DNA of 64,000 nt. Source: Rhizomicrobium palustre. GTDB taxonomy: Bacteria > Pseudomonadota > Alphaproteobacteria > Micropepsales > Micropepsaceae. Location of the stretch: positions 3,162,139-3,226,138 of the forward strand of contig NZ_JAASRM010000001.1 in assembly GCF_011761565.1 (NCBI RefSeq). Reading direction: 5' to 3'. The position numbers were made by a program, and so were the translations under genes. Below, piece after piece: positions 1,386 through 26,320 of this stretch (positions are counted from its first letter, which is position 1; each line of letters starts with the position of its first letter). The notes beneath the pieces were generated by a model. It ran no database searches. It had not been told where the DNA came from and saw nothing but the letters and a program-made list of their open reading frames with translations.

Positions 1386-2615
1386 TCAGAACCTTTCGAT
1401 ATCGAAGGCGGGGCAGGATTGGGATTGCCCCGTCACCATCGAAGCAATGCGTTCGGCGGTAAGCGGGCCCAAGGTCAAGCCAAGATGGTTATGCCCGAAA
1501 GCATAGAAGAGATTGGCGGCAGCGCGGCTTTTGCCGATCGCGGGCAGATAGTCGGGCAGGGTGGGGCGCGATCCAACCCATTGCGAGGTTTCCGCGCCCG
1601 CTTTCAAACCCAGATCGCGCACCGTGCGCGTGATGCGGCGCCATTTGGCGGGATCGGCGGGCAAATTCTCTTTGCCGAATTCGACAAAGCTTGCCGCGCG
1701 CAGGCTGGAGGCAAAGCGGGTGACGATGGTCGCGTAATCCTCGAACACCACCGGAGGCATCATTTGCGGCCAGGCTTGCGCCTCATATTGCACGTGATAA
1801 CCGCGCTCCGCGATCATCGGCACTTTATGGCCGGCTGTTTCCAGAAGCGCGCGCGAGCCGAAACCTGCCGCTACCACGATCACATCCGCGGTGATCACCT
1901 CGTTATCGAGAAGAATGCGCGCGGTGTCGTCCTCACGCTGAAGCGCCCGCACTTTGCCGTTCAGGCGCGTAATTCCGGCGGCCGAAAACGCGCTCTCCAG
2001 TTTTGCGAACAGCGCGGCCGGATCGCTGATCTGTCCGCTGCCGATACAGCGTACCGCGCCTTCGATCTTCTTGGCCGAGAGCGCCTGCAGCGCTTCCATC
2101 TCCTCTTCCGACGCGTCGCGAATGCTCGCTGTGCCGGTATCGCTTTCCATCCAATGCTGGCGGCCCGCAGCCGCGCTCTTGGCACTGTTCCAAACGATGA
2201 AATGGCCATCGCCGCGCATCAGCTCTGGCGCGCAAAGGCTTTCTGTAAAGCGTTTCCAAGCCGGAACTGCTTCCGCCAGAAGCAAGGCCAAGGCGCGGCT
2301 GCCGCGCTCAAAACTCTTGGGCTGAGCCGCCTTCAGAAGACGAATCGAAAAGGGCAGCCATGCATCAATGGCATTAAGCGGCAGGGACAAGGCGCCATGA
2401 GGCGAGAGAAGGCGGCGAGGGGCGCCGAGGACAGTCGCCATAGACGCGATAGGTGCAACTTGCTCTACTGCAATATGGCCTGCATTTCCCCAGGACGCAC
2501 ATTTTCCATGCGAAGGCGGCGCATCGATCAGCGTCACGTCCAGGCCCGATTGGCGCAATTTCAACGCCACTGCCGAGCCGATAATGCCTGCGCCGGTGAC
2601 AACCGCTTTCGTCAT
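1386..2615 (-). CDS. FAD-dependent D-amino acid dehydrogenase, probably cis-4-hydroxy-D-proline dehydrogenase
   Basis: Predicted to oxidise cis-4-hydroxy-D-proline to 1-pyrroline-4-hydroxy-2-carboxylate, the second step of hydroxyproline catabolism. The 409-residue protein opens with a Rossmann FAD motif (VTGAGIIGSA) and has the DadA-like SWGNAGH segment near residue 45; the C-terminal FGHNHLGLTLGP segment is typical of DAO-fold oxidoreductases. The ATG at 2615 is chosen because the dinucleotide fold begins there and GGGA lies 5 bases upstream; the frame stays open upstream to 3050, but that stretch is antisense to the deaminase gene. It is divergent from the deaminase-epimerase-dehydrogenase operon across 66 bases that hold a predicted GntR operator. 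The specific substrate is inferred from neighbours. Confidence 0.87.
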   Translation of the reverse strand: MTKAVVTGAGIIGSAVALKLRQSGLDVTLIDAPPSHGKCASWGNAGHIAVEQVAPIASMATVLGAPRRLLSPHGALSLPLNAIDAWLPFSIRLLKAAQPKSFERGSRALALLLAEAVPAWKRFTESLCAPELMRGDGHFIVWNSAKSAAAGRQHWMESDTGTASIRDASEEEMEALQALSAKKIEGAVRCIGSGQISDPAALFAKLESAFSAAGITRLNGKVRALQREDDTARILLDNEVITADVIVVAAGFGSRALLETAGHKVPMIAERGYHVQYEAQAWPQMMPPVVFEDYATIVTRFASSLRAASFVEFGKENLPADPAKWRRITRTVRDLGLKAGAETSQWVGSRPTLPDYLPAIGKSRAAANLFYAFGHNHLGLTLGPLTAERIASMVTGQSQSCPAFDIERF

Positions 2616-2639
2616 AACAATTCCCACATTGAAAGCCGA

Positions 2640-2657
2640 AATATTATACCGTATACC
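2640..2657. promoter_or_regulatory. Predicted GntR operator (site 1)
   Basis: AATATTATACCGTATACC contains the odd palindrome TATAC-C-GTATA (2645-2655). Read on the minus strand it gives GGTATAATATT, one base off the shared CGTATAATAT core. It sits midway between the divergent flavoprotein (start 2615) and deaminase (start 2682) genes. Binding by the regulator at 15904-16611 is inferred. Confidence 0.7.
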
Positions 2658-2681
2658 GGTACCACTGCAACGGAGGTTTGA

Positions 2682-3602
2682 ATGGCTGCGAAAGTACTGT
2701 GGAAGGGTGTTTATCCTGCCGCGACGACTCAATTTGATAAAGATTTGGCCGTTGATGTGCCCGCCACACAAAAGGTTTTGGATGCGCTGGTGACGGATGG
2801 CGTGGATGGCCTCGTCGTGCTGGGCACTTGTGGTGAGAATAATTCGCTGGAACCGGAAGAGAAGCGCACGGTTCTGGCCGCAGCCGCCGAAACCGTTGCC
2901 AAGCGCGTTCCTATCGTCGCCGGTGTTTCCGAGCTCACCACCGATCGCGCGGTGAAATATGTGCGCGATGCCGAGAAGCTTGGCGCCGATGCGCTGATGG
3001 TGCTTCCGGCCATGGTCTATGTGCCGACGGAAGATGAGCTCCTCGCGCATTTCAAAAAGATCGCGGCTGCGACCTCGCTGCCGATCATGATCTACAACAA
3101 CCCCATCGGCTATCGCGTCGAGATCAGCCTCAAGCTGCTCGAGCGTCTGGCCGAAATTCCGAACGTCGTCGCCGTGAAGGAAAGCGCCCCCGATACGCGC
3201 CGCTTCACCGATGTGATCAACGCCTTCGGCAAGCGCTTCACGGTTCTCGCCGGTCTTGATGACGTTGCGCTGGAAGGCTTGATGATGGGCGCCTCGGGCT
3301 GGGTCTCCGGTCTTACCAGCGCCTTCCCGAAGGAATCCGTGGCGATCATCCGCTTGCTGGATGAAGGTAAGTTAGAGGAAGCTCGCGAAATCTATCGCTG
3401 GTTCATGCCGCTCCTCCATCTCGATTCCTGCCACGATCTCGTGCAGGGCATCAAATTGGCGGAAGAATTGATGGGCCGCGGCTCCGAGCGCGTGCGTCTG
3501 CCGCGCCTGCCGCTCGCAGGCAGCCGCCGCGAGCAGGTCATCGCGATGGTCAAACATGCTGCCGCCACGGCGCCTTGCAGCAAGCTTTCCTCCGCGGCTT
3601 AA
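2682..3602 (+). CDS. lhpC: DHDPS-family 1-pyrroline-4-hydroxy-2-carboxylate deaminase
   Basis: Class I aldolase-fold lyase of the DapA family, predicted to deaminate and dehydrate 1-pyrroline-4-hydroxy-2-carboxylate to 2-oxoglutarate semialdehyde. The 306-residue protein has a GTCGEN loop in place of the usual GTTGE phosphate/carboxylate motif, the YNNP motif with Tyr138, and the Schiff-base Lys166 in VVAVKES. ATG 2682 follows GGAGG at a good distance. It heads an operon with the epimerase (17-base gap) and the aldehyde dehydrogenase (7-base gap). True dihydrodipicolinate synthase is unlikely, because all three partners belong to hydroxyproline degradation and the enzyme is encoded next to the D-amino acid dehydrogenase. 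Confidence 0.88.
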   Translation: MAAKVLWKGVYPAATTQFDKDLAVDVPATQKVLDALVTDGVDGLVVLGTCGENNSLEPEEKRTVLAAAAETVAKRVPIVAGVSELTTDRAVKYVRDAEKLGADALMVLPAMVYVPTEDELLAHFKKIAAATSLPIMIYNNPIGYRVEISLKLLERLAEIPNVVAVKESAPDTRRFTDVINAFGKRFTVLAGLDDVALEGLMMGASGWVSGLTSAFPKESVAIIRLLDEGKLEEAREIYRWFMPLLHLDSCHDLVQGIKLAEELMGRGSERVRLPRLPLAGSRREQVIAMVKHAAATAPCSKLSSAA

Positions 3603-3619
3603 GGGGTTAGGCTCCCGCC

Positions 3620-4618
3620 ATGAAGAACATCTTCTTTTGCATCGATGGGCACACGGCGGGAAACCCCGTGCGCCTTGTCGCGGGTGGGGCGCCTTTGCTC
3701 CATGGGGAAAATATGGGAGAGCGCCGGAAGGATTTTCTGGCGCGCTTCGATTGGATCCGCACCGGCCTGTGCTTTGAGCCGCGCGGGCATGACATGATGT
3801 CAGGCGGGTTCCTCTATCCACCGACCCAAGCCGATACCGATATCGGTATTCTCTTCATGGAGACCAGCGGCTGCTTGCCGATGTGCGGTCATGGCACCAT
3901 CGGCATCATCACCTTTGGTATCGAGCATGGGCTGATTGTGCCCCGTGAGCCCGGTCGTCTGAAAGTGGAAGTTCCTGCGGGCATCATCGACATCGAATAC
4001 GGCACTGAGGGCAAGAAGGTGACCTGGGTGCGCATCCGCAATGTGCCCGCTTATGTCGCCGCGACCGGCATCAAGATCGATGTGCCCGATTTCGGGCCGC
4101 TCACGGTCGATATCTCGTATGGCGGCAATTACTACGCCATCGTCGAGCCGCAGGGCCCCTATGAAGGGCTCGACGCGCTCAACGCCGACCGTATCAAGGC
4201 GCTCAGCCGCACCATCCGCGCCCAGCTTCAAGCCATCATTGATCCGGTGCATCCGGTCGATCCGCGCATTCACGGCGTCAGCCATGTTTTGTGGGCCGAT
4301 AAGCCGATGAGCGCTGATGCTGATGGCCGCAATGCGGTTTTCTATGGTGACAATGCCATCGACCGCAGCCCGTGCGGAACGGGAACCTCAGCGCGGCTTG
4401 CCCATCTGGTTTCCAAGGGGCGGTTGAAAAAAGGCGACCGCTTCATACATGAAAGCTATATCGGCAGCCGCTTCATTGGCCGGGTGGAAGACGTCACAAA
4501 ATTGGGCGGGGTGGATGCTATCATCCCGTCCATCGAAGGCTCGGCGATAGCCACCGGATACAACACCATTTGGATCGATCAGGACGATACGTTCGCGGCC
4601 GGATTTAGCGTGAAGTGA
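3620..4618 (+). CDS. lhpA: 4-hydroxyproline 2-epimerase (proline racemase family)
   Basis: Epimerises trans-4-hydroxy-L-proline to cis-4-hydroxy-D-proline, the entry step of the pathway; cytosolic and cofactor-free. The 332-residue protein carries both catalytic cysteines of the family: Cys89 in the MCGHGTIG motif and Cys252 in SPCGTGTSA. Retention of the second cysteine argues against trans-3-hydroxyproline dehydratase, which has threonine there. The N-terminal DGHTAGNPVRLV stretch is the usual family opening. It is the middle gene of the deaminase-epimerase-dehydrogenase operon. Proline racemase cannot be excluded by sequence alone, but the neighbours make the hydroxyproline activity much more likely. 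Confidence 0.92.
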   Translation: MKNIFFCIDGHTAGNPVRLVAGGAPLLHGENMGERRKDFLARFDWIRTGLCFEPRGHDMMSGGFLYPPTQADTDIGILFMETSGCLPMCGHGTIGIITFGIEHGLIVPREPGRLKVEVPAGIIDIEYGTEGKKVTWVRIRNVPAYVAATGIKIDVPDFGPLTVDISYGGNYYAIVEPQGPYEGLDALNADRIKALSRTIRAQLQAIIDPVHPVDPRIHGVSHVLWADKPMSADADGRNAVFYGDNAIDRSPCGTGTSARLAHLVSKGRLKKGDRFIHESYIGSRFIGRVEDVTKLGGVDAIIPSIEGSAIATGYNTIWIDQDDTFAAGFSVK

Positions 4619-4625
4619 GATATCA

Positions 4626-6065
4626 ATGACTGAGACCATCACCCTGCAGCATCATGTGGCGGGCAAGCTCGTATCGGGCGCCACCGCCTTTGAGCAGCCC
4701 AATCCTGCCGATCCAAACGATCTCGTCATCGTCGGCCCGGAAGGCGATACGGCGCTTGCTGATGAGGCGAGTGCGGCGGCGCGTTCGGCGGTGGCTGCTC
4801 TGGCAGCGGGTGGGGTGGAAAAGCGTGCCGATAGCCTGGCCGCGATTGGCCGTACACTGATGGCCCGCGTGCCGGAACTCGCCGTGTTGATCGCGCGCGA
4901 GACCGGAAAGACAGTGCCGGATGCCAAGGGTGAAATCATCCGCGCGGCGCGCCTGTTCGAATTCTTCGCGGGCGAAACCATCCGCAATGTGGGTGAGATG
5001 TTCGATTCCACCCGTCCGGGCGTGACGGTGGAAGTGAGCTACGATCCCGTCGGTGTGGTCGCGGCGGTGACGCCGTGGAATTTCCCGATTGCCATTCCGG
5101 CCTGGAAGATCGCGCCCGCCATCGCCTTTGGGAATGCGGTTCTGTGGAAGCCCTCGGAATATTCCTCGGCCACCGCCGCCGCCTTGATGGAGGTGATCGC
5201 TGGCGCCGGACTTCCCGATGGCGCGGTGAACATGATTTTGGGTGCCGGTGGGGCAGGCAAGGCCGTCACCGAAGCTTCTGGCGTGGATGCGGTCTCCTTC
5301 ACTGGTTCCGCCACTACGGGCCAGCTCGTGCGCAAGGCCGCCGCGGCCAGCGGGCGCCGCATGCAGCTTGAGATGGGCGGCATCAATGCGCTGGTGATCG
5401 CGGCCGATGCCGATATCCCGAGCGCGGTGGAATGTGCGCTGAATGGCGCCTTCTTCGCGGCGGGCCAGCGCTGCACTGCCACCTCGCGTATCATTGTGGA
5501 TGACAGCATTGCCGATGCCTTCGTCGCTGCGCTCACGGCTCGGATGCAGAGCGTTGTTGTGGGCGATCCGCGCGATGCCAAAACGCAAGTTGGCCCGCTG
5601 GTGTCCTTGCGCCAGAAGGCGGCGATCTCCGCGCTCACAGAGCGCGTGGAAGCGGTGACGGTACCGGTGATCGGCGGCACGAAACAGGAAATGCCGCATG
5701 CCTTCTTCGCGCTGACCTTGTTCGATGGCCTGACGGGCGATCACATCTTTGGCGCCGATGAAATCTTCGGGCCGGTGGCGGGTGTCTATCGTGCCAAGGA
5801 TTTTGATGAGGCGCTGGCGCTGGTGAATGGCTCTAAGGCCAATCTCTCCGCCGGGCTCTGCACCAAATCGCTGAAATATGCGCAGGTGTTCAAGAAGAAG
5901 GTGCATGCGGGCGTGGTGACGATCAACCTGCCGACCGCGGGCATCGATTATCACGCGCCCTTCGGCGGCGTCGGGGCTGCAAGCTATGGCCCGCGCGAGC
6001 AGGGGCGGTCGGCGCGCGATTTCTACACCGAGCTGAAGACGACCTACCTCAGCCCGGGCGTCTAA
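4626..6065 (+). CDS. 2-oxoglutarate semialdehyde dehydrogenase (aldehyde dehydrogenase family)
   Basis: NAD(P)-dependent aldehyde dehydrogenase predicted to oxidise 2-oxoglutarate semialdehyde to 2-oxoglutarate, feeding hydroxyproline carbon into the TCA cycle. The 479-residue protein shows the substrate/cofactor motif TPWNFPIAIPAWK, the general base Glu249 in LEMGG and the nucleophile Cys283 in GQRCTATSR. It is the last gene of the operon and is followed at once by a strong intrinsic terminator. A vanillin or succinate semialdehyde dehydrogenase reading is possible from sequence alone; the operon decides the call. Confidence 0.9.
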   Translation: MTETITLQHHVAGKLVSGATAFEQPNPADPNDLVIVGPEGDTALADEASAAARSAVAALAAGGVEKRADSLAAIGRTLMARVPELAVLIARETGKTVPDAKGEIIRAARLFEFFAGETIRNVGEMFDSTRPGVTVEVSYDPVGVVAAVTPWNFPIAIPAWKIAPAIAFGNAVLWKPSEYSSATAAALMEVIAGAGLPDGAVNMILGAGGAGKAVTEASGVDAVSFTGSATTGQLVRKAAAASGRRMQLEMGGINALVIAADADIPSAVECALNGAFFAAGQRCTATSRIIVDDSIADAFVAALTARMQSVVVGDPRDAKTQVGPLVSLRQKAAISALTERVEAVTVPVIGGTKQEMPHAFFALTLFDGLTGDHIFGADEIFGPVAGVYRAKDFDEALALVNGSKANLSAGLCTKSLKYAQVFKKKVHAGVVTINLPTAGIDYHAPFGGVGAASYGPREQGRSARDFYTELKTTYLSPGV

Positions 6066-6084
6066 TTCTCCACACCGGAATCAG

Positions 6085-6113: not shown

Positions 6114-6196
6114 GCCTTCGGCGCTGCTTGCAATCGCGTCAGGCCGTCCAGGGGGATCGAAAGCGCGCGCGGGAACCCATTCGCCCGCAATCCTTT

Positions 6197-6210
6197 GTAG
6201 TATACTATTT
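6197..6210. promoter_or_regulatory. Predicted GntR operator (site 2)
   Basis: Contains TAGTATACTA (6198-6207), a perfect 10-base palindrome matching the TNGTATACNA pattern known for FCD-type GntR regulators. It lies about 285 bases before the receptor start, so it may be a distal or auxiliary site. Confidence 0.55.
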
Positions 6211-6430: not shown

Positions 6431-6447
6431 GTATATCGTATAATATT
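6431..6447. promoter_or_regulatory. Predicted GntR operator (site 3)
   Basis: GTATATCGTATAATATT shares the 12-mer ATCGTATAATAT exactly with the site at 13099-13115, and its reverse complement matches 15 of 17 positions of site 1. It sits 45 bases before the receptor start codon, a position suited to repression. Confidence 0.68.
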
Positions 6448-6491
6448 TTTCTCAGCGTTTTGTAATAATGAGGGAAAGGGGCACATTCTCC

Positions 6492-11562: not shown

Positions 11563-11565
11563 CTT

Positions 11566-13074: not shown

Positions 13075-13098
13075 CGCGCATTCCCCAGTAGTCTTCAA

Positions 13099-16611: not shown

Positions 16612-16684
16612 CTGTTTCCAGCGGTTACCCGCCGTTCTGGCCTTGGGGACGAAGGCTATTGTGGCTGGCGATCGTTGCCAGATA

Positions 16685-16695
16685 ACGTATACTAT
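16685..16695. promoter_or_regulatory. Predicted GntR operator (site 5)
   Basis: ACGTATACTAT contains CGTATACTAT, one base from the 10-base core of sites 3 and 4. It lies in the divergent region between gntR (start 16611) and the M24 peptidase (start 16782). Confidence 0.65.
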
Positions 16696-16781
16696 CAGGC
16701 CGTCTCCCTCCAAGAAAGACCGTGCTTGTCGCTCCCTTTGGCAAGGCGGACGGCCTTTTCCCAACTGGATATGAAGCCCAA

Positions 16782-17971: not shown

Positions 17972-19738
17972 TTATTCTTCGTCGGGGTAGGGGCCTTTGC
18001 CCCCCTCGGCGATGAATTGATCGATCCGCGCCTCGAGCACCGGCAACGGCACCGAGCCCAAGGACAGTACGGTGTCGTGGAAGGCGCGGATGTTGAACTT
18101 TTCGCCCAGCGCGGCCTCGGCCTTATGGCGCGCTTTCCAGATCGCCATCTCACCGAGGTAATAAGAAAGCGCCTGTCCCGGCCAGGCGATATAGCGATCC
18201 ACCTCGGTCGCGATTTCATGATCGGCGAGCGCCGTGTTGTCGTGCAGGAATTGGCGGGCCTGTTCGCGCGTCCAGCCTTGGCTATGAATGCCGGTATCGA
18301 CCACCAGCCGTGCTGCGCGCCACATCTGATAGCTCAGCATGCCGAAACGTTCATAAGGCGTCTCGTAGATGCCCATCTCCACACCCAGCCGCTCGCTATA
18401 AAGCGCCCAGCCTTCGCCATAGGCCGAGATGAAGCTGTCACGGCGGAAGGGCGGCAGGTTCTTGTTTTCCGACGCTAGCGGCATCTGGAAGGCATGACCC
18501 GGCGCGGATTCATGCAAGGTCAGCGCAGGCAGGGAATAGAGCGGGCGCGAGGGCAGGTTATAGGTGTTGACGAGATAGATGCCTGGGCCACCGCGGCCAC
18601 CCGTATAGAAAGGTGCGATATCATCCGGTACTGGCTTGATGGCAAAACGCTGGCGCGGCAGATGGCCGAAATACTCGCCTGAGACGGCATCGAACTTTTT
18701 GGAAATCCAGGCCGCGCGATCCAAGAGGTCTTGCGGCTTCTTCACATAGAATTGAGGATCGGTACGCAGGAAGGCGAGGAAGGCGGCAAGATCGCCTTCG
18801 AACTTCACTTCCTTCATCACCTCGGCCATTTCGGCGCACAGAGAGGCGACTTCCTTCAGCCCGACCTCGTGAATATGCGCCGGATCGTCATGCATGGTGG
18901 TGTATTCGTAGATCTGCGCTTTATAGAAGTTCTTGCCATCCGGCAGGTCATACGCGGCGAGGGATTTTTGCGCGCCTGGCACATATTCATCGCGCAGGAA
19001 TTTCAGCAGATTTTGATGCGCCGGAATCACGCTGTCTGAGATCGCCTTGCGGGCAGCCGCGCGCAGCTCTTCCTGTTTGGCGGCTGGAAGGCTCGCCAGC
19101 ATGGTCTTGAACGGCGTGTAGTAGATGTTCTCTTCCACGTTCGGCGCGTTCAGCACCGATTGCACCGTGGCGTCGCGCCCTTCTAGCGTGACCTGGGGCA
19201 GGGTGAAGCCGCGCTTTAGGCCGGCCCGCATATTCTCGATATTCTCCTGGAAATAGCGGGGAATATCGTTCAGTTGGCTGATGTAATTGCGATAGTCCTC
19301 TTCGCGGCGGAAGCTGCCGCGTGCCATGCTGGCCAGATCGCCCCAGAAGGAGGTGTCGCCGGAAAGCGGGCGTTGATAGGTCTTATAGACCTGATCGGAA
19401 ATCAGGGTCTCGATCTGATAGCGATAGACCTTGAAATCCACGCCGCGCTGCGCCGAGAGTTTGGCCGTGTCGATCTTGTCCAGGCGGTTCAAGACCTCGC
19501 GCCAATGGGCAAGGCGCTTTTGCTGCGCGGCTTCATTCACCACCGGCAGATGGGCTGTATGCGTTGCATTGGGCGTGTCTTCATCCGCCGCGAATTGATG
19601 CTGCCTCCATGTCCATTCCGCCTTGTACAGAGCTTCGAAAGCTTTGTTTTCGTCGTGCTTGGCGGTTGCGGCTTGGCTTGGAAGAATGAGATCACACATG
19701 CAGATTGCCGTCATCACTATGGGTAGGAACGCTTTCAC
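17972..19738 (-). CDS. Secreted DUF885-family metallopeptidase
   Basis: A 588-residue exported protein with a signal peptide ending near SQAATA. It has the DUF885 zinc motif LTLHESAPGH (His409, Glu410, His415) and a downstream GEGWALYSERLG segment that supplies the third ligand region. Proteins of this family are thought to be zinc carboxypeptidase- or dipeptidase-like enzymes, but their substrates are poorly known. It converges on the M24 peptidase with only 8 bases between stop codons and is divergent from the GH127/146 gene across a predicted operator. A role in trimming deglycosylated Hyp-rich peptides in the periplasm is inferred. Confidence 0.85.
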   Translation of the reverse strand: MKAFLPIVMTAICMCDLILPSQAATAKHDENKAFEALYKAEWTWRQHQFAADEDTPNATHTAHLPVVNEAAQQKRLAHWREVLNRLDKIDTAKLSAQRGVDFKVYRYQIETLISDQVYKTYQRPLSGDTSFWGDLASMARGSFRREEDYRNYISQLNDIPRYFQENIENMRAGLKRGFTLPQVTLEGRDATVQSVLNAPNVEENIYYTPFKTMLASLPAAKQEELRAAARKAISDSVIPAHQNLLKFLRDEYVPGAQKSLAAYDLPDGKNFYKAQIYEYTTMHDDPAHIHEVGLKEVASLCAEMAEVMKEVKFEGDLAAFLAFLRTDPQFYVKKPQDLLDRAAWISKKFDAVSGEYFGHLPRQRFAIKPVPDDIAPFYTGGRGGPGIYLVNTYNLPSRPLYSLPALTLHESAPGHAFQMPLASENKNLPPFRRDSFISAYGEGWALYSERLGVEMGIYETPYERFGMLSYQMWRAARLVVDTGIHSQGWTREQARQFLHDNTALADHEIATEVDRYIAWPGQALSYYLGEMAIWKARHKAEAALGEKFNIRAFHDTVLSLGSVPLPVLEARIDQFIAEGGKGPYPDEE

Positions 19739-19787
19739 AATAAGACCCCCGCTGCCTGGAACAAGAGAAGAGAACCGATTGCAGCGT

Positions 19788-19805
19788 AATCGTATACAGT
19801 ATATC
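19788..19805. promoter_or_regulatory. Predicted GntR operator (site 6)
   Basis: AATCGTATACAGTATATC holds ATCGTATA, shared with sites 3 and 4, and a GTATAC core. It lies 50 bases before the DUF885 start (19738) and 33 bases before the GH127/146 start (19838). Confidence 0.65.
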
Positions 19806-19837: not shown

Positions 19838-22213
19838 ATGCCGCGCCTTCACCGCCGTGATCTGTTGCGAAGCTCCGCATCTATGGCTGCGTTTGCAGCG
19901 CTATCTGGCGGAACGGCTCTAGCCGCACCGCAGCAGGGCCTCGCGCACCCCGTCGCACTGAAGAATGTGCGTCTCTTACCCTCGCCATACCGCACGGCGG
20001 TTGAAGCCAACCTCAAATACCTTCTGTCGTTGTCGGCGGATCGCTTCCTGCACAACTATCATAAGTTCGCAGGCCTCCCCGTGAAGGGCGAGCTTTATGG
20101 CGGCTGGGAAGCTGACACCATCGCGGGCGAGGGGCTTGGCCATTATTTGAGCGCTTTGGCGCTGATGTATGCCCAGACTGGCAATCAAGAGTGCAAAACC
20201 CGCATCGCTTATATCGTTTCGGAAATGGCCAAGGTGCAGGCCGCGCAAGGCGATGGCTATGTCGCCGGATTCTTGAGGAAGCGCAAAGACGGCACCATCG
20301 TGGATGGCAAAGAAATCTTCGCCGAAATCGCTGCGGGCGATATCCGCTCCACCGGGTTCGATCTGAACGGCGCCTGGTCGCCGCTCTACAACATCCACAA
20401 GGTGCTGGCGGGTTTGTTGGACGCCGAGGAACTGGTGGGCAATAAGCAGGCGCTGACCGTCTGCCTCGGCTTCGCCCGCTATCTCGATAAAGTGTTCGCG
20501 AAGCTCTCCGACGCGCAGATGCAGGATATGCTCTCCTGCGAATATGGCGGCATCAATGAAAGCTTTGCCGAGCTTTATGCCCGCACCAAGGATGCGCGTT
20601 GGCTGAAACTTGCTGAACGCATCTACGATAAGAAGAGTCTCGATCCCGTGCTGGCGGGCGAGGATCATCTCCCCAACACCCATGCCAATACCCAGATTCC
20701 GAAGATCATTGGCCTTGCGCGGATCGCGGAAGTCGGTGGGCCCGGCAGCTTCAAGCAAGGCGCGGCGTTCTTCTGGGATACCGTAGTGCACCATCACAGC
20801 TTTGTGATCGGCGGCAATGGCGACCGCGAATATTTCTTCGCGCCCGATACCACGGCGGATCATCTCACCGAACAGACCTGCGAGCATTGCGGCAGCTACA
20901 ATATGCTGAAGCTGACGCGGCACCTCTATGCCTGGAAGCCGGATGCGGCGCTGTTCGATTATTACGAGCGCACCCAGCTCAATCACATTCTCGCGGCGCA
21001 GAATCCCAAGACGGGCATGTTCACCTATATGACCCCGATGATGTCGGGGGCAGAGCGTGGCTTCTCCGGGCCAGAGGATGCCTTCTGGTGCTGTGTGCTC
21101 TCGGGCATGGAAAGCCACGCCAAGCACGGCGATTCCGTCTATTGGGAATCCGGCAACACGTTTTTCGTGAACCTCTTCATTCCCTCCGAAGTGAAAAGCA
21201 GCTTCGGTGCCTGGCAGCTCCAGACGCGCTATCCCTATGAAGGCGATATTCACCTCAAATTGAACGCGCTGCATGCGCCGAAGGTTTTCGCGCTAGCCCT
21301 GCGTATTCCGGGCTGGGCTGAAAGCGCCGACATCACCATCAATGGCGAGAAGGTCGAGGCCGTCCGCGAGCATGGCTATGCGGTCCTGCGCCGTACATGG
21401 AAGGCAGGCGATGCGGTGACGCTCTCTCTGCCGCTGGCGCTTCGTCTTGAAACGGCGCCGGGCAGTGAACGCGCGGTGTCGATCCTGCGCGGGCCTATGG
21501 TGATGGGCGCTGATCTCGGCTCTGCCGAGAAGCCCTTTGAAGGTGTCGCGCCCGCTTTGGTCGGCGCGGATTTGCTCGCGGGCATCAAGCCGGTAGCGCC
21601 GCAAGATGCGGTCTATCGCACCGAAGGTATCGGCCGCCCTGGCGAACTCACCTTGAAGCCTTTCTATGCCCAGTGGGAAGAACGTTCGGCGCTCTATTTC
21701 AATCGCTACAGCGAGCCGGAATGGGCGAAATACCAAGCCGCCTATCTCGCCGAGCAAGCCCGGTTGAAAGACATTGCCGCCCGTTCGCTGGATGTGATGC
21801 ATCTGGGTGAAATGCAGGCCGAGCATGATCACGCGCTGAAGGCGGAAACTTCCTATCCCGTGATTTATCGCGCCCGCAATGGCCGCGATGCGCGCGCTGG
21901 TGGCTTCTTCTCCTTCGAGATGGCCGCCCGCAAAGACGGCAAGGACCCTGGCGCGCTGATGCTCGCGGTCACCTATTGGGGCGGCGAGGTCAATCGCGAT
22001 TTCAATATCGAGGTCGATGGCGCGCTTGTCGCGCATCAGCTCCTCACCGGTCAAAAGCCCGGCGAATGGCTCGATCTCGAATATGCGATCCCGCTGGAGC
22101 TGACCAAGGGCAAGGACAAGATCACCGTCCGCTTTGTCAGCTTGAATCGTAAATCCGTTGGTCCGGTCTTCGGCGTCCGTCTCTTCACCGCCGCGCCTTC
22201 AGGGGCAAAGTGA
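19838..22213 (+). CDS. GH127/GH146-type beta-L-arabinofuranosidase
   Basis: Zinc-cysteine glycosidase predicted to remove beta-linked L-arabinofuranose, the sugar attached to hydroxyproline in extensins. The 791-residue precursor has an RRDLLRSSA twin-arginine-like signal peptide, an alpha/alpha barrel (about 35-430) and C-terminal beta domains. The Cys3-Glu site is visible: the EHC triplet (Glu349, Cys351) followed by GSYNML, and the double cysteine Cys418-Cys419 in FWCCVLSG. Glu331 in REYF is a candidate acid/base. The motif style (YNML, GMESHAKHG) is closer to GH146 than to the Bifidobacterium GH127 enzyme. It is the first gene of a three-glycosidase operon and overlaps the GH43 gene by one base. 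Confidence 0.9.
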   Translation: MPRLHRRDLLRSSASMAAFAALSGGTALAAPQQGLAHPVALKNVRLLPSPYRTAVEANLKYLLSLSADRFLHNYHKFAGLPVKGELYGGWEADTIAGEGLGHYLSALALMYAQTGNQECKTRIAYIVSEMAKVQAAQGDGYVAGFLRKRKDGTIVDGKEIFAEIAAGDIRSTGFDLNGAWSPLYNIHKVLAGLLDAEELVGNKQALTVCLGFARYLDKVFAKLSDAQMQDMLSCEYGGINESFAELYARTKDARWLKLAERIYDKKSLDPVLAGEDHLPNTHANTQIPKIIGLARIAEVGGPGSFKQGAAFFWDTVVHHHSFVIGGNGDREYFFAPDTTADHLTEQTCEHCGSYNMLKLTRHLYAWKPDAALFDYYERTQLNHILAAQNPKTGMFTYMTPMMSGAERGFSGPEDAFWCCVLSGMESHAKHGDSVYWESGNTFFVNLFIPSEVKSSFGAWQLQTRYPYEGDIHLKLNALHAPKVFALALRIPGWAESADITINGEKVEAVREHGYAVLRRTWKAGDAVTLSLPLALRLETAPGSERAVSILRGPMVMGADLGSAEKPFEGVAPALVGADLLAGIKPVAPQDAVYRTEGIGRPGELTLKPFYAQWEERSALYFNRYSEPEWAKYQAAYLAEQARLKDIAARSLDVMHLGEMQAEHDHALKAETSYPVIYRARNGRDARAGGFFSFEMAARKDGKDPGALMLAVTYWGGEVNRDFNIEVDGALVAHQLLTGQKPGEWLDLEYAIPLELTKGKDKITVRFVSLNRKSVGPVFGVRLFTAAPSGAK

Positions 22214-23754
22214 TGCTGAAAGCTCTTTTTCTCAGCGGCGCGGCTTTTGCCTTGCCGCTCGCCGCCGCCGAGCCCATCGCCGTGACCGCGCCGCATAATC
22301 CGATCTTGTCGGACGGCACTTCATTTTCCGCCGATCCCGCGCCGCTGGTGGTGGGCGACACGCTTTACATTCTCGCCGGGCATGATGAAGCCGCGCCAGA
22401 CCAGAATGATTTCATCATGAATGACTGGCAGCTTCTGGCGACCAAGGATGTCGCCTCCGGAAAATGGCTGCATTATCCGCGTTTCCTGAAACCCGAGGAT
22501 GTCTTCAAATGGGCGACGCCGGGCCGCGCTTACGGTGCCCAGATCATCCAGGCGCCGAACAAGAAATTCTATCTCTACGCGCCGGTGATGCAGGCGAACT
22601 GTTCAGATAAGGATTGTTTCGGCATTGGTGTCGCGGTTGCTGACAGCCCGCTTGGGCCTTGGACTGATGCCCATCCCGCAGGTCCCATCATCTCGCAGCG
22701 CGCCCCCGTCGCCAACACTATCCAGAACATCGATCCCACGCCTTTCGTGGATGAGGATGGCCGCGTTTATATCTATTGGGGCACCTTCGGACAGCTGCGG
22801 GGTATCGAACTCGCCGCCGATATGATCACGCCCAAAGGCGAAGAGGTTGCGGTTAAATCGCTGAAAGGCTTTTTCGAAGCGCCTTGGCTCTTTAAGCGCA
22901 ACGGCACCTATTACATGGCCTATGCGGGCAATCACGCGGGGCCGAACTCGGATTGCACCCCTGCCGTCTATCACGCCTGCATCGCCTATGGCTCCGCGCC
23001 GTCACCGCTCGGTCCTTGGACCTATCGCGGCGTGATCCTGCCGCCGGTCAGCTCCACCACTTCGCATGACGGGATCATTCAGTTCAAAGACAAATGGTAT
23101 CTCGTCTATCATACCGCGGATGCCAAAGGTGGCGGTCATTTCCGCCGTTCCGTCGCGATCGATGAGATGCAATGGGACGATAGCGTTACCCCCGCCGCGA
23201 TCAAACAGGTCACGCCGACGCCGCGCCCGCCTTCGGAAATCGGCCCGCAGCGCAATGTCGCCCCCGCTGCGAAAATCGTTGTCTCCAACGATCCCGTGCC
23301 GGTGCAATGTTGGAGCAAGGCGCTGAATGATGGCATCGTCCGGGTCAATCCGCTGCCACCCGATATGTGGGGCACCTGGAACGGCAATAACCCGCCCAAG
23401 CCCTGGATCGCTTATCAGTGGAGCGCGCCGGTCAAGCTGAACGCCTCGCGGATCACTTTCTGGGCGGATCATCCGGCAGGCGCGGGCGAGGGCGTTGCCC
23501 CGCCGAAATCCTGGCACCTTGAATATTGCGATGGCAGCGCCTGGAAGCCGGTCCATGCCACCTCCAGCTATGGCACCGAGACAGACAAATTCGTTGAGGT
23601 GACCTTTGAACCCGTCACCACCACATGTCTGCGAGCCGTTTTCGATGCCTCGCAGGCGGGGGGTGGCACGGCAGGCGTGGCGGTTGAGGAATGGGAGGCG
23701 CTATCGGTCGAACCCGTCAAGCTGCATCTCGGGGAAAGTCCGCAAGTTAAATAG
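22213..23754 (+). CDS. GH43 alpha-L-arabinofuranosidase with C-terminal beta domain
   Basis: Five-bladed propeller glycosidase, secreted, 513 residues. A signal peptide ends near LAAAEP. The GH43 residues are Asp41 (base, SADPAP), Asp174 (NIDPTPF) and Glu222 (acid, FFEAPWLF). After about residue 330 a beta-sandwich, possibly carbohydrate-binding, follows. The start is the ATG overlapping the preceding stop (TGATG), suggesting translational coupling to the GH127/146 gene. GH43 enzymes include alpha-L-arabinofuranosidases that remove the terminal alpha-1,3 arabinose of extensin side chains. Paired with a beta-L-arabinofuranosidase it resembles the division of labour known for the Bifidobacterium longum extensin enzymes. 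Beta-xylosidase activity is the main alternative. Confidence 0.88.
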   Translation: MLKALFLSGAAFALPLAAAEPIAVTAPHNPILSDGTSFSADPAPLVVGDTLYILAGHDEAAPDQNDFIMNDWQLLATKDVASGKWLHYPRFLKPEDVFKWATPGRAYGAQIIQAPNKKFYLYAPVMQANCSDKDCFGIGVAVADSPLGPWTDAHPAGPIISQRAPVANTIQNIDPTPFVDEDGRVYIYWGTFGQLRGIELAADMITPKGEEVAVKSLKGFFEAPWLFKRNGTYYMAYAGNHAGPNSDCTPAVYHACIAYGSAPSPLGPWTYRGVILPPVSSTTSHDGIIQFKDKWYLVYHTADAKGGGHFRRSVAIDEMQWDDSVTPAAIKQVTPTPRPPSEIGPQRNVAPAAKIVVSNDPVPVQCWSKALNDGIVRVNPLPPDMWGTWNGNNPPKPWIAYQWSAPVKLNASRITFWADHPAGAGEGVAPPKSWHLEYCDGSAWKPVHATSSYGTETDKFVEVTFEPVTTTCLRAVFDASQAGGGTAGVAVEEWEALSVEPVKLHLGESPQVK

Positions 23755-23851
23755 GGGATTATCGCCCTCGCGGGGGCCGCCTCACGGATTTGGGACTTTG
23801 CGGCAGGCAAAATTGCGCGCTTAACTAGAGTCTTGCACAAGCGAGGCTCCC

Positions 23852-26320
23852 ATGAAGCTGATCCGCTTTCTCGCCTTCGTCCTCTTCATCAGCCCCGCTG
23901 CGCTGGCGGCAGACAGTCTCGCAATCAACGGGGCGGGCTATTTTGAAAAGCCCGGCCTCAACGTCATGGTCTTCGATGATTTCTACCCCGAAGGCCATCA
24001 AGGCGGGGTGAGCATCATTCAGCAGGGCGTGCGCGTCGCGGCGCTGGGGGACCTTCGACTGGAACCTGCGCCAGGGCAGTGGTCGCCCATGCCCGCGATT
24101 GGCGCAAAGAAGATTGACCGCAAGACTGGAACCATCACCCAGTCGCTCTCTTACCCCGACCCCAAGCGCATTCACGCCACCGATAATCCGATCGTTTATC
24201 CCGACCTCGATTTTTCCTATCGCCTGCGTGTCACCGCGCTTTCCGGAGACAGTTTCAAGATCACTGTCGATCTCGACAAGCCGCTGCCGGAGGCGTGGAT
24301 CGGCAAGGTCGGCTTCAATCTCGAACTCTTCCCCGGCGATCTTTTCGGCAAGCCCTATTTGATGGACGGCTTAGGCGGGATTTTTCCGCGCCAGCCCAAT
24401 GGTCCCATCACCGGCAATAAAGAAGCCAAAATCGGTGCGCCGCTGGCGAGTGGCACCAGCTTCGTGGTCGCACCCGATGATGAGGCTCGCCGCCTGAAGG
24501 TGGAAAGCAAAACGGGGCCGCTTCAGCTCATCGATGGCCGCGTCACCTATAATAATGGCTGGTTTGTGCTGCGCAGCCTGATCGCGAAAGGCGCCAGCAA
24601 AGGCGCTATCGAATGGATCGTCACGCCGCACACCATTCCTGGCTGGAAATATCAGCCCGTCATCCAGGTCAGCCAAGTTGGCTACGCCAGCGCGCAGCAA
24701 AAACGCGCGGTGATCGAGCGTGACCCGCGCGATACCACGCCTGGGCCCGTAGTGCTCTATCGCTTGACCGAGAGCGGCAAGGAAGAGGTGCAGCGCGGCA
24801 CAGCGGAGCAGTGGGGCAAGTTCCTGCGCTATGATTATGCCACCTATGACTTCTCCAAGGTGACCCAGCCGGGCATGTATGTTCTCAGCTATGGCAGAGT
24901 GCTCTCGCATCCCTTCCGCATCGGATCGGATGTTTATGACCGCGACGTGTGGCAGCCGACGCTGGAATATTTCCTCCCCGCTCAGATGTGCCACATGCTG
25001 GTGCGCGAGGGCTATCGCGTCTGGCATGGGCTCGATCACCAAGATGATGCGCTGATGGCACCGGTCAACCACATGCATTTCGATGGCTATGCGCAGGGGC
25101 CCTCTACCTTGACCAGCTTTAAACCCTGGCAGCATGTGCCGGGGCTGGATGAGGGCGGCTGGCATGATGCGGGCGACTACGATTTACGTGTCGAATCCCA
25201 GATGGGCACCGTCTGGGCGTTATCCAAAATGGTGACGGAGTTCGGCCTCACTTACGATGCCACCACGATCGACGAAACCGCCAAGCGCACCGAAATTCAT
25301 GAGCCGGATGGCAAGAACGACGCCCAGCAACAGATCGTACACGGACTTTTAAGCGTGCTCGGCGGCTATCACGCGATGGGGCGGCTCTATCGCGGCATTC
25401 AGGATATTGATCTCGAGCAATATACGCTGCTGGGGGACATCTCCACCAATACCGATGGGCTTGTTTACGACGCCGCGCTCAAGCCAGGCGAGCGTACCGC
25501 CACCACTTCGGGCAAAAAAGATGACCGTCTGGTCTTTACCGAAGATAATCCCGACCGGGAGGTCGAAATGGCGGCACAGCTTGCGGCCGCCTCTGTGGCG
25601 CTCAAGAACTTCGACGCCAAGATGTCGGCGGATGCGCTGGATGTTGCCAAGAAGCTCGATGGCACCAGCTTTGCCCGCGCCAAATGGCTTTCCCCGCGCG
25701 TCTTCATGCTGAGCGAACTTTATCTCGCCACCGGCGATAAGAGCTATCTCACGCGGCTCATCGCGCTCAAACCGGAGATCGTCGCGCATATTGGCCAGGC
25801 TTGGGCGTTGGGTGAGGTGATCAATCAGATTGATGATGCCGCCTTCAAAGCCGATGTCGCCAAGGCGGTGGCCGCTTATCAGAAAGACCTCGCCGCCAAG
25901 CTCGCCAAGGCCTCACCTTATGGCGTGCCGTTTGATTGGCGCATCTGGGGCGTGGGCTGGCAGGTGCAGGAAGAGGCCGTGCATCAATACTTCTTCCGCA
26001 AAGGCTGGCCCGAGCTGACCACGCCGGATTTCGAACTCAACGCGCTCAATTATGATCTCGGCGTGCATCCGGGCGAGAATACCGAATCCTTCGCTTCCGG
26101 TGTCGGCGCGCGTTCGGCCACGGTGGCGTATGGCACCAATCGCGCCGACTGGTCTTACATTCCAGGCGGCGTCGTCTCCGGCACCGCGCTGATCCGCCCC
26201 GATCTGCCCGAGCTGAAAGTCTGGCCCTTCTTCTGGCAGCAAAAGGAATATGTCATGGGCGGCGGCGAAACCGATTTCATGTTCCTCGCCCTTGATGCGC
26301 GGAAGATGTTCGGGAAATAG
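23852..26320 (+). CDS. Secreted GH9 glycosidase with N-terminal Ig-like domain
   Basis: Inverting clan GH-G enzyme, 822 residues, signal peptide ending near AALAAD. It has an extended beta-rich N-terminal region, a CelD_N-like Ig domain around 275-370 (QVSQVGYASAQQKRAV) and an alpha/alpha6 catalytic domain from about 380. The GH9 motif GGWHDAGDYD gives Asp439 and Asp442, and Glu806 in GGGETDFM is the likely acid. GH9 is usually an endo-beta-1,4-glucanase family, with some exo-glucosaminidases and glucosidases, so the target here is unclear. It follows the GH127/146-GH43 pair by 97 bases and is probably cotranscribed. A second promoter is possible, since the gap has no operator-like site. Confidence 0.88.
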   Translation: MKLIRFLAFVLFISPAALAADSLAINGAGYFEKPGLNVMVFDDFYPEGHQGGVSIIQQGVRVAALGDLRLEPAPGQWSPMPAIGAKKIDRKTGTITQSLSYPDPKRIHATDNPIVYPDLDFSYRLRVTALSGDSFKITVDLDKPLPEAWIGKVGFNLELFPGDLFGKPYLMDGLGGIFPRQPNGPITGNKEAKIGAPLASGTSFVVAPDDEARRLKVESKTGPLQLIDGRVTYNNGWFVLRSLIAKGASKGAIEWIVTPHTIPGWKYQPVIQVSQVGYASAQQKRAVIERDPRDTTPGPVVLYRLTESGKEEVQRGTAEQWGKFLRYDYATYDFSKVTQPGMYVLSYGRVLSHPFRIGSDVYDRDVWQPTLEYFLPAQMCHMLVREGYRVWHGLDHQDDALMAPVNHMHFDGYAQGPSTLTSFKPWQHVPGLDEGGWHDAGDYDLRVESQMGTVWALSKMVTEFGLTYDATTIDETAKRTEIHEPDGKNDAQQQIVHGLLSVLGGYHAMGRLYRGIQDIDLEQYTLLGDISTNTDGLVYDAALKPGERTATTSGKKDDRLVFTEDNPDREVEMAAQLAAASVALKNFDAKMSADALDVAKKLDGTSFARAKWLSPRVFMLSELYLATGDKSYLTRLIALKPEIVAHIGQAWALGEVINQIDDAAFKADVAKAVAAYQKDLAAKLAKASPYGVPFDWRIWGVGWQVQEEAVHQYFFRKGWPELTTPDFELNALNYDLGVHPGENTESFASGVGARSATVAYGTNRADWSYIPGGVVSGTALIRPDLPELKVWPFFWQQKEYVMGGGETDFMFLALDARKMFGK

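Follow-up and report, generated by a model that had tools for sequence, protein, structure and literature searches.

A conserved locus in Rhizomicrobium palustre that probably joins removal of plant hydroxyproline-linked glycans, proline-type peptidases, and hydroxyproline catabolism

Hydroxyproline-rich glycoproteins (HRGPs) form a large, protected pool of nitrogen and carbon in plant walls. Bacterial use of their protein backbone, in soil or on leaves, is little described in the literature searched. Some HypR regulons for hydroxyproline (Hyp) catabolism are reported to take in upstream functions as well, namely collagenases, prolyl peptidases, and a TonB receptor (PMC5343134); collagenases are described in those of Alteromonadales and Streptomyces, and prolyl peptidases also in those of Alteromonadales (PMC5343134, PMC6608401). 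In Xanthomonas, HRGP de-arabinosylation is described together with a neighboring prolyl oligopeptidase gene (PMC6085000). The X. euvesicatoria enzyme is assigned to GH146, Araf-β1-Hyp is reported as the main substrate of XCV2724, also a GH146 member, and another GH146, Bll3HypBA1, is placed in an AGP cluster (PMC10850190). The novelty claim of an earlier note on the DNA analyzed here, which knew of no described Gram-negative TonB-type system joining glycan removal to Hyp catabolism, needs trimming in view of these precedents (PMC5343134, PMC6085000), although no paper was found on the fusion of a HypR regulon with HypAA/HypBA enzymes in one regulon.

The window, a 64,000-nt stretch of Rhizomicrobium palustre (GTDB lineage Bacteria; Pseudomonadota; Alphaproteobacteria; Micropepsales; Micropepsaceae), covers positions 3,162,139–3,226,138 of the forward strand of NZ_JAASRM010000001.1 (assembly GCF_011761565.1). 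The locus occupies window positions 1386–26320 and reaches further left to an amino acid permease gene with the same operator, whose frame begins 85 nt ahead of the window. Pfam searches covered 30 window proteins and NCBIfam searches 20, and each gene named earlier proved to be an intact open frame (Table 1). The locus is probably one regulon for living on Hyp-O-glycosylated plant (or green-algal) proteins or peptides. This reading draws on gene content, catalytic motifs, conserved linkage, common operator-like sites, and the fold of the DUF5695 protein in a predicted model. From these we infer the substrate, the direction of transport, the site-binding protein, the inducer, and the specificity of each enzyme, which sequence alone does not reveal; a plant origin of the substrate is read from the enzyme families.

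Table 1. Genes and operator-like sites of the locus (positions in the window, or in L086 where so marked)
Feature	Position	Strand	Evidence
Amino acid permease (APC/CAT type)	3..1382 (L086 17055-18521)	+	PF13520 181 bits
Operator-like site, upstream of permease	L086:17040		15.1 bits
FAD-dependent D-amino acid (putative cis-4-D-Hyp) dehydrogenase, HypO-like	1386..2615	-	PF01266 151.5 bits; GAGIIG motif
Two overlapping GTATAC-type sites, oxidase/hypD gap	2639..2661		19.8 and 14.6 bits
Putative Pyr4H2C deaminase (HypD), DHDPS family	2682..3602	+	PF00701 201.7 bits; specificity from context
4-Hydroxyproline 2-epimerase (HypE)	3620..4618	+	NF010578 536 bits, cutoff 376
Putative α-ketoglutarate semialdehyde dehydrogenase	4626..6065	+	PF00171 418 bits
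Operator-like site before TonB receptor	6195..6210		21.3 bits
Second operator-like site before TonB receptor	6433..6448		23.6 bits
TonB-dependent receptor, TonB-Xanth-Caul type	6468..9275	+	TIGR01782 497 bits, cutoff 310
Exported DPP IV-like S9 peptidase	9358..11562	+	PF00930, PF00326; GHSAGG
Exported GH27 α-galactosidase-family enzyme	11566..13074	-	PF16499 241.8 bits; KYD, WNDPD, GDIEDS motifs
Operator-like site, GH27/DUF5695 gap	13098..13113		23.6 bits
DUF5695, exported putative carbohydrate-active enzyme	13169..15865	+	PF18951 1254.8 bits
GntR/FCD regulator	15904..16611	-	PF07729, PF00392; start 16611 or 16557
Operator-like site, gntR/prolidase gap	16682..16697		19.2 bits
Cytosolic M24 Xaa-Pro dipeptidase (prolidase)	16782..17963	+	PF00557 199 bits
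Exported DUF885 protein	17972..19738	-	PF05960 520.6 bits; HESAPGH ... EGWA
Operator-like site, DUF885/GH127/146 gap	19787..19802		20.4 bits
Exported (RR-type signal) GH146-like β-L-arabinofuranosidase with DUF6805	19838..22213	+	PF07944 404.9 bits
Exported GH43, candidate α-L-arabinofuranosidase	22210..23754	+	PF04616 124 bits; catalytic motifs
Exported GH9-like protein with CelD_N domain	23852..26320	+	PF00759 41.6 bits (weak), cutoff 27.7

HypE carries both Cys motifs, MCGHG and SPCGTGT. The oxidase, deaminase, and semialdehyde dehydrogenase genes adjoin hypE, as in a HypR-type 4-hydroxyproline regulon. None of the three products reaches a curated NCBIfam equivalog cutoff (the best match of the dehydrogenase is AlphKGSA_gudD, at 385 bits against a cutoff of 770), and gene context suggests their substrates, D-Hyp in the case of the oxidase. 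The oxidase is present as first described, although its start is probably near the ATG at 2615 rather than at 3050.

Among the exported glycosidases, the protein first labeled GH127/146 does have the GH127 fold, but its closest solved structure is 5opj, a GH146 enzyme, at 430.7 bits; among chains labeled GH127, the top score is 92.5 bits. Its E349-x-C351 and C418-C419 agree with the Zn ligands, the Zn-Cys feature of GH127 and GH146. C-terminal residues 369–503 of the GH43 protein match HypBA2 residues 1161–1288 (8e-11); these 135 residues, at 40 bits against a cutoff of 3200, are the only HypBA2-like stretch in the 20 proteins searched with NCBIfam, which includes the HypBA2 model, and no GH121 β-L-arabinobiosidase was found among them. 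The GH9-like gene is present, with a weak family score and no upstream operator of at least 8 bits; it is probably peripheral rather than core, because none of 80 related loci reaches the 200-bit GH9 threshold.

The AlphaFold model of the DUF5695 protein (pLDDT 88.6) combines a β-sandwich with an α/α barrel, and this predicted structure has the N-terminal β-sandwich and (α/α)6 barrel of the PL27 fold. Its best fold match is PL27 BACCELL_00875 (5no8; Z 33.7, 3.1 Å, 645 residues aligned, 17% identity), and a profile comparison of the sequences gives E 3e-5 and 25 bits, at 16–17% identity. An identity of 17% across a common fold does not give the substrate. BACCELL_00875 is described as an L-rhamnose-α-1,4-D-glucuronate lyase that frees rhamnose from gum arabic (PMC8377490). 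Since DUF5695 resembles PL27, and PL27 is a gum-arabic or AGP lyase, extensin is not singled out as the target. The earlier proposal of an enzyme here for each extensin linkage is not established: no GH121 appeared in the 20 proteins searched with NCBIfam, DUF5695 has a PL27-like fold, GH9 is not conserved in related loci, and galactosyl-serine is no more than a putative substrate of GH27.

The receptor probably takes up glycopeptides, and the permease is probably an inner-membrane importer of Hyp or proline. The S9 peptidase best matches solved bacterial DPP IV structures (2ecf, 155.9 bits; 5olj, 155.3 bits). The prolidase scores 462 bits against the proline dipeptidase 4r60, and no clear signal peptide was seen in it. 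The AlphaFold model of the DUF885 protein (pLDDT 84) matches the solved lipoprotein 3o0y (Z 39) and M32, M3, and M2 peptidases (Z 9–12); it is probably a metallo-oligopeptidase. A point against the full reading is that the scanned proteins include no endoprotease.

A GTATAC-centered palindrome lies upstream of transcription units in both the Hyp and the glycan halves. The motif was derived from the window itself, which makes its enrichment across the genome of the window circular. Asticcacaulis and Sphingomonadaceae served as held-out tests. Sites precede 41–53% of the genes tested there, versus at most 1.0% (0.1–1.0%) in shuffles. For the Hyp half they occur in 16/30 upstream regions in Asticcacaulis and 24/50 in Sphingomonadaceae, and for the glycan/peptide half in 18/37 and 88/213, the latter including 39/41 before GH127. 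The common site stands before both halves in 24 of the 38 loci in which both are visible. No site precedes hypE, a gene inside the operon (0/8 in each group), and sites are absent or rare before M24 (0/7 in Asticcacaulis, 1/23 in Sphingomonadaceae) and before sphingomonad DUF885 (0/39), GH43 (2/19), and GH27 (0/4). Most sphingomonad Hyp loci without DUF5695 have the same sites before hypD; six of these 19 loci keep GH127, five with a site before it. Acidobacteria have none in 16 upstream regions, and Sphingobacterium shows no enrichment (1/8 and 1/8). A GntR/FCD gene with predicted operators before the hyp genes is a feature of HypR-type regulons, and the regulator is probably a HypR-type repressor. 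Genes of this family scoring at least 190 bits occur in 26 of 80 DUF5695-centered loci. As to orthology with S. meliloti HypR, the best of the Sinorhizobium matches listed is only 33% identical to the window regulator, and the window epimerase has no match in the single region viewed.

The linkage sample comprised 80 genomes chosen solely for DUF5695, and the comparison samples were 96 family genomes, 387 Alphaproteobacteria, and 199 Sphingomonadaceae. A full-length proline-racemase-family gene is present in 73/80, compared with an epimerase-family match over cutoff in 110/387 Alphaproteobacteria (Fisher 1e-26, kinship ignored). Within the Sphingomonadaceae, such a gene is found in 8/8 DUF5695 genomes and 19/191 others. 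Co-occurrence in related genomes, the absence of which would have counted against the proposal, was found: where DUF5695 and the epimerase-family gene share a contig (53 genomes), they lie within 30 kb of each other in 50, out of the 80 sampled. This proximity exceeds chance for a domain found in 2/96 family genomes and 2/387 Alphaproteobacteria, the genome of the window being in both counts. It recurs in several genera and two phyla; Alteromonas has the single-strand run GntR-oxidase-HypD-HypE-KGSADH-GH2-DUF5695, and Sphingobacterium gobiense has permease-DUF885-oxidase-HypE-ALDH-HypD adjoining DUF5695. Epimerases from 56 proteobacterial members group together in a single clade (support 100/100). 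Near DUF5695, KGSADH is found in 1/80 and a close relative of the window receptor in 7/80, and other TonB receptors do occur. An epimerase-family gene within 30 kb of DUF5695 was not seen in 11/12 Acidobacteria, both Duganella, both Acetobacter, Shewanella, Sphingosinicella, or 2/3 Novosphingobium. Only the genome of the window has both genes among the 96 family genomes; Rhizomicrobium electricum, despite belonging to the same genus and having DUF5695, GH127, GH27, DUF885, M24, GntR, and the sites, has no epimerase. Some relatives are plant-linked by name or source (Leaf242, Root241, tomato, Chinese cabbage). The earlier view that genes for glycan removal, proline-type peptidases, and Hyp catabolism belong to a single locus is supported: from linkage and common sites, that locus is conserved and probably co-regulated.

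In the proposed mechanism, a HypR-type GntR/FCD repressor would bind the palindromes before most transcription units and be released by Hyp or a Hyp product. The exported GH146-like and GH43 enzymes would strip β- and α-linked arabinofuranose, GH27 would take off α-galactose or β-L-arabinopyranose, and DUF5695, with its PL27-like fold, may attack a further linkage. Glycopeptides would enter the periplasm through the TonB receptor, where the DPP IV-like peptidase and DUF885 would trim them. Hyp or small peptides could then be imported by the permease, X-Hyp and X-Pro dipeptides cleaved by the cytosolic prolidase, and Hyp converted to α-ketoglutarate by the epimerase, D-Hyp oxidase, deaminase, and semialdehyde dehydrogenase. 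The earlier description of a path from sugar coat to TCA cycle suits Hyp but not arabinose, as the single araA found is 1.29 Mb away.

A narrower reading, at somewhat less than even probability, is that the target is AGPs (or gum-type AGPs) rather than extensins, with DUF5695 removing acidic or rhamnose caps and GH146, GH43, and GH27 removing side-chain arabinose and galactose; it would refine the main reading, not negate it. The fold match to the gum arabic enzyme (PMC8377490), the AGP cluster around Bll3HypBA1 (PMC10850190), and GH2, GH97, or GH35 neighbors in Alteromonas, Asticcacaulis solisilvae, Stakelama, and the window all favor AGPs. However, neither GH79 nor GH30 was found by Pfam in 30 window proteins, a β-arabinofuranosidase with GH43 and prolyl peptidases suits extensin-type Hyp-arabinosides equally, and 17% identity to PL27 over a common fold does not give a substrate.

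It is quite improbable that a Hyp operon and a pectin or arabinan locus lie side by side by chance. Such independence would fit the unlinked araA and the DUF5695 loci of R. electricum and most Acidobacteria, which have no nearby epimerase-family gene, but not the proximity repeated across genera and phyla, the same site before both halves in the 24 loci noted above, or the way genes of the two halves intermingle in Alteromonas and Sphingobacterium. More improbable still is a regulon for scavenging animal, collagen-type Hyp with the glycosidases as passengers, a reading suggested by the collagenases reported in HypR regulons of Alteromonadales and Streptomyces (PMC5343134, PMC6608401). Against it, Pfam found no collagenase in 30 window proteins, and some relatives have plant names or come from plant sources. 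Collagen is not known to offer a substrate for L-arabinofuranosidases.

The locus connects deglycosylation, peptide cleavage, and Hyp breakdown through a common operator-like site, which makes bacterial use of the HRGP backbone testable. The preferred reading, use of Hyp-O-glycosylated plant proteins or peptides, offers a substrate class for DUF5695 and DUF885, both of them domain families of unknown function, and predicts where new Hyp-glycan enzymes may be sought. Many Sphingomonas and Asticcacaulis become candidate consumers of HRGP-type glycoproteins, and similar gene sets recur in many other bacteria. An extended reading, which is unlikely, is that of a mobile, cross-phylum nutrient regulon dedicated to Hyp-O-glycosylated plant peptides, in which a module for deglycosylation and a new, PL27-like CAZyme family, DUF5695, came under the control of HypR, usually a sensor of free Hyp. 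On that reading, exopeptidases and TonB uptake, seen with no endoprotease in the scanned proteins, would match a diet of short Hyp-arabinosylated peptides, and plant glycopeptide hormones (CLE, PSY, and HypSys types) could also be eaten in the root zone or on leaves. Extension to signaling glycopeptides would bear on plant development and immunity.

A Bacteroidota SusC/SusD locus has a SusD-like lipoprotein beside its receptor, whereas Pfam found no SusD-family match among 30 window proteins, the neighbors of the receptor included. DUF5695 and BACCELL_00875 have RxYNY, WD....GK, and HYxS stretches in common, but DUF5695 is a separate Pfam family with extra C-terminal strands past the aligned part. 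HypBA1, HypBA2, and HypAA of Bifidobacterium longum follow an equal sugar logic on Hyp-arabinosides, but in a Gram-positive system whose description, as far as it extends, does not name peptide or Hyp use. XeHypAA, XeHypBA2, and XeHypBA1 of X. euvesicatoria are, like the window genes, Gram-negative and adjacent to a prolyl oligopeptidase gene, and the GH43 and GH146 proteins are of similar length (528 and 791 residues there, 514 and 791 here); unlike the window, that set has a GH121, its peptidase gene is a pseudogene, and its description as used here mentions neither Hyp catabolism nor DUF5695 (PMC6085000). The HypR regulons of Sinorhizobium, Alteromonadales, and Streptomyces share the GntR-family repressor, epimerase, D-Hyp oxidase, deaminase, and KGSA dehydrogenase; where their known upstream enzymes are collagenases, the window has putative glycosidases for arabinosylated or galactosylated glycoproteins, together with DUF5695 and DUF885.

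The locus lies in a single-contig genome of 4.26 Mb, and its host, a member of the Micropepsaceae, shares a GTDB genus with Rhizomicrobium electricum. All genes that the earlier note listed are found between the amino acid permease and the right-hand end, with open frames and the expected motifs. By simple hydropathy, judged by eye, the glycosidases, S9 peptidase, DUF885 protein, and DUF5695 protein have hydrophobic N termini as for export, and the hydroxyproline (Hyp) enzymes and M24 prolidase have no exported look; the hydrophobic N-terminal stretch of the oxidase is its GxGxxG segment. The GH9 gene, also named in that note, is not conserved and is probably not a core member, as none of the 80 DUF5695-centred loci reaches 200 bits. 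About 5 kb past the locus, just after a tRNA-Asp gene, lies a GH35/DUF5597 β-galactosidase-like gene with a relative in the Stakelama locus (L016); this region is possibly an island boundary or an additional part of the locus. Farther right are a urea carboxylase/allophanate hydrolase set with a UAAP1 protein, a lipase-like protein, and an ABC transporter with a solute-binding protein.

Coordinates of the locus and other features (C1, contig of the window's own genome; L-handles, individual loci)
Feature	Sequence	Position
Window	C1	3162139-3226138
Locus, from permease (start just left of window)	window	to 26320
tRNA-Asp	window	31002-31078
GH35/DUF5597 gene	window	31295-33028
Urea carboxylase/allophanate hydrolase region	window	33302-45259
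Arabinose isomerase	C1	1875461
Tandem operator-like sites	C1 (L147)	3718203-3718246
Site match within a frame	C1	385025
Site match, ambiguous position	C1	2293042
R. electricum locus	L013	1-15729
GH2, Alteromonas	L048	6726-9875
GH97, Asticcacaulis solisilvae	L083	6288-9485
DUF6055, Sphingobium limneticum	L026	12757-14712
Ldh-family gene, Sphingomonas plasmid	L153	16386-17381
Ldh-family gene, Asticcacaulis taihuensis	L007	4982-5995

The two halves of the locus, Hyp catabolism and glycan/peptide breakdown, carry the same operator-like site. A 16-bp near-palindrome around GTATAC occurs 5' of the permease, twice 5' of the receptor, and in the oxidase/hypD, GH27/DUF5695, gntR/prolidase, and DUF885/GH127 gaps; window positions of these sites include 2646, 6433, 13098, 16682, and 19787. 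Its form fits a target of the GntR/FCD repressor, the putative binding protein. A matrix made from six window sites was tested on other genomes in upstream windows of ∼350 nt, with a threshold of at least 14 bits. Sites precede genes of the Hyp and glycan/peptide halves, respectively, in 16/30 and 18/37 cases in Asticcacaulis, 24/50 and 88/213 in Sphingomonadaceae (including GH127 in 39/41 and hypD in 9/11), and 2/9 and 3/14 in Caulobacter; dinucleotide shuffles for these three groups give 0 to 1.0%. Alteromonas has 3/4 and 1/2 (shuffles 10% and 0), and R. electricum has 1/1, at its own GntR gene, and 3/5. The Sphingobacterium counts, 1/8 and 1/8, are near the shuffle levels of 12.5% and 8.8%, so there is no enrichment in that genus. 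Acidobacteria have none (0/1 and 0/16), and the distant epimerase controls have 1/15. Where both halves are visible, 24 of 38 loci have sites 5' of both. Some genes seldom have a site of their own, including HypE (0/16), M24 (1/30), and GH43 (2/19) in Asticcacaulis and Sphingomonadaceae, and DUF885 in sphingomonads (0/39); some genes without a site are inner operon genes.

A search for further regulon members in the host genome yields mismatch-free matches outside the locus in three areas, none clearly 5' of a gene. One of these holds two identical tandem sites, 28 nt apart, past the ends of both flanking frames. When the S. meliloti HypR system was used for comparison, the match region in S. 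medicae had no annotation and no epimerase match.

Linkage across genomes provides a second line of evidence. When the collection was scanned with DUF5695 as the sole query, 106 relatives were confirmed, and 80 of their loci were analyzed; these are not independent, 34 of the 80 being from Sphingomonas. A full-length proline-racemase-family gene is present in 73 of the 80 genomes. It is on the DUF5695 contig in 53, same-contig status being inferred from equal contig sizes, and within 30 kb in 50 of these 53. In several of the 20 cases assigned to another contig, the contigs are short and a nearby gene may simply be out of view; for one genome (L014) the assignment is unproven, as it has a second epimerase-family contig. 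An epimerase-family gene lies within 30 kb in Asticcacaulis (7/8), Sphingomonas (27/34), Sphingobium (5/6), Sphingobacterium (4/4), Stakelama (1/1), Alteromonas (1/1), proteobacterial MAGs (2/2), Caulobacter (1/2), Novosphingobium (1/3), and Acidobacteria (1/12); within that distance there is none in Duganella or Acetobacter (0/2 each) or in Sphingosinicella, Shewanella, or R. electricum (0/1 each). The curated epimerase model, applied to proteins from the window, Alteromonas, and one Sphingobacterium, places all above its cut-off, and the acidobacterial and Duganella family members are only 32-36% identical to that of the window. KGSADH is seldom linked to DUF5695, and receptors differ among loci. 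In 12 Acidobacteria (L034, L046, L051, and others), DUF5695 has no orthologue-level match to other genes of the set nearby, so its role there is not tied to hydroxyproline.

Could the two halves be chance neighbors? Background frequencies and control regions bear on this question. The epimerase family is above cut-off in 110 of 387 sampled Alphaproteobacteria and DUF5695 in 2, including the window's genome; among 96 genomes of the window's own family the counts are 13 and 2, with both genes together only in the window's genome. Of 199 evenly sampled genomes from the family of a Sphingomonas, 8 have DUF5695, all with a full-length epimerase-family gene, which is within 18 kb in 6; two of the eight overlap with the DUF5695-centred set, and their exclusion leaves 6/6. 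The epimerase-family gene is present in 19 of the 191 genomes without DUF5695. Control epimerase regions were taken from 10 distant Alphaproteobacteria and 19 sphingomonads, of which three are <8 kb and three have epimerase-family proteins only 31-34% identical. The ten distant regions contain no glycosidase, peptidase, or receptor of the set at E 1e-20. In the sphingomonad controls, which lack DUF5695, GH127 adjoins the Hyp genes in 6/19, with a site before GH127 in 5 of the 6; glycan-Hyp coupling is thus wider than the DUF5695-bearing loci. Taken together, the linkage and site tests make a chance neighborhood unlikely. The modules are nevertheless separable, as R. electricum has the glycosidases, a GntR gene, and strong operator-like sites with no epimerase match in its genome, and so a regulon that lacks the pathway it is named for; its regulator may sense something else. 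Within the reading of a joint regulon, extensin and AGP targets are indistinguishable by sequence.

Another proposal, that arabinose and Hyp share one KGSADH, finds no support. The genome has an arabinose isomerase gene, unlinked to the locus, and only two ILVD/EDD matches, making a non-phosphorylating L-arabinose route unlikely from the predicted gene set.

Gene order and epimerase phylogeny were compared across loci. In Alteromonas confluentis, GntR, oxidase, HypD, HypE, KGSADH, GH2, and DUF5695 genes follow one another on a single strand; the last four are separated by gaps of 43 and 63 nt and, at the remaining junction, overlap by 1 nt. In Sphingobacterium gobiense, a divergent DUF5695 adjoins a single run of permease, DUF885, oxidase, HypE, aldehyde dehydrogenase, and HypD genes. 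In an epimerase tree of 82 rows, with short or broken matches left out, 56 proteobacterial cluster members form a single clade (100/100), the sister of the window's protein is that of Stakelama (96/98), Sphingobacterium forms its own clade, and Duganella and Sphingosinicella are placed elsewhere. These placements suggest transfer of the cluster, in a tree without epimerases of the window's own family. The cluster label requires 3 changes on this tree rather than 1. DUF5695 is on four plasmid records (three Sphingomonas, one Novosphingobium); the one examined has permease, GntR, DHDPS, DUF885, and GH127 genes adjoining. An Ldh-family oxidoreductase, which might be a pyrroline-carboxylate reductase or a sugar-acid enzyme, adjoins GH127 or the epimerase in Asticcacaulis taihuensis and on a Sphingomonas plasmid (L153).

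The individual enzymes were compared with solved or curated relatives. The window epimerase is above the cut-off of the curated model and retains two cysteine motifs, presumably the sign of an epimerase/racemase and not of a trans-3-Hyp dehydratase. The S9 peptidase has bacterial DPP IV as its top solved chains (2ecf, 155.9 bits; 5olj, 155.3 bits); 2ecf is the S. maltophilia enzyme, reportedly, by the title of its paper, active on a 4-Hyp substrate. The prolidase scores 462 bits against solved proline dipeptidases. The DUF885 protein has HESAPGH and EGWA motifs, and its predicted model matches the solved lipoprotein 3o0y (Z 39) and the solved DUF885 protein 3iuk (Z 33.7); scores with M32, M3, and M2 metallopeptidases (Z 9-12) may reflect a common helical arrangement. 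A literature search for DUF885 specificity gave nothing usable. The closest solved chains of the GH127-fold protein, 5opj/6yqh/8qf8, are presumably BT0349 of GH146. In the window protein, the E-x-C and CC residues agree with the published Zn site of GH146 and GH127 enzymes. The GH146 enzyme XCV2724 reportedly has Araf-β1-Hyp as its main substrate (PMC10850190).

The DUF5695 model, predicted from an alignment of 40 sequences (pLDDT 88.6), has as its top match among those listed the PL27 protein BACCELL_00875 (5no8; Z 33.7, 3.1 Å, 645 residues, 17% identity). The same protein as 5nok gives Z 26.6, and the next different protein listed gives Z 19.0; Foldseek returns BACCELL_00875 at E 8e-29. Profile agreement between DUF5695 and PL27 is weak (E 3e-5), with RxYNY, WD....GK, and HYxS stretches aligned. 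This fold, together with the profile agreement, indicates that DUF5695 is probably a carbohydrate-active enzyme, a candidate lyase at most. PL27 reportedly frees rhamnose of gum arabic through β-elimination (PMC8377490). Invariant residues of DUF5695 include R543, Y547, D696, H712, and Y713. Accessory enzymes adjoining DUF5695 vary, including GH2 in Alteromonas and GH97 in Asticcacaulis solisilvae, and DUF6055 adjoins it in Sphingobium limneticum. Two members of the Sphingomonas family (G584:C17, G721:C33) have a second, distant DUF5695 paralogue (∼155 bits), encoded on the opposite strand less than 12 kb from the first.

The earlier note knew of no described Gram-negative TonB-type system joining glycan removal to Hyp catabolism. 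Among titles and abstract openings in the open-access literature, no report joins Hyp catabolism with plant-glycoprotein glycosidases, and the main text of a proline racemase superfamily neighborhood survey lacks the terms glycoside, glycosyl, TonB, extensin, and plant (PMC4113996). To this extent the claim holds, but its components have precedents. Collagenases, prolyl peptidases, and a TonB receptor already belong to published HypR regulons (PMC5343134), and a Streptomyces HypR regulon also includes a collagenase (PMC6608401). Xanthomonas de-arabinosylates HRGPs, with a prolyl oligopeptidase gene adjacent (PMC6085000), and GH127 of Latescibacteria is assigned to extensin (PMC4454575). DUF5695 is mentioned, in the open-access text searched, in one fungal study only. 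Given the known HypR regulons and Xanthomonas system, the locus is therefore a variation on known systems, and the DUF5695 proteins within it are probably a new family of carbohydrate-active enzymes.
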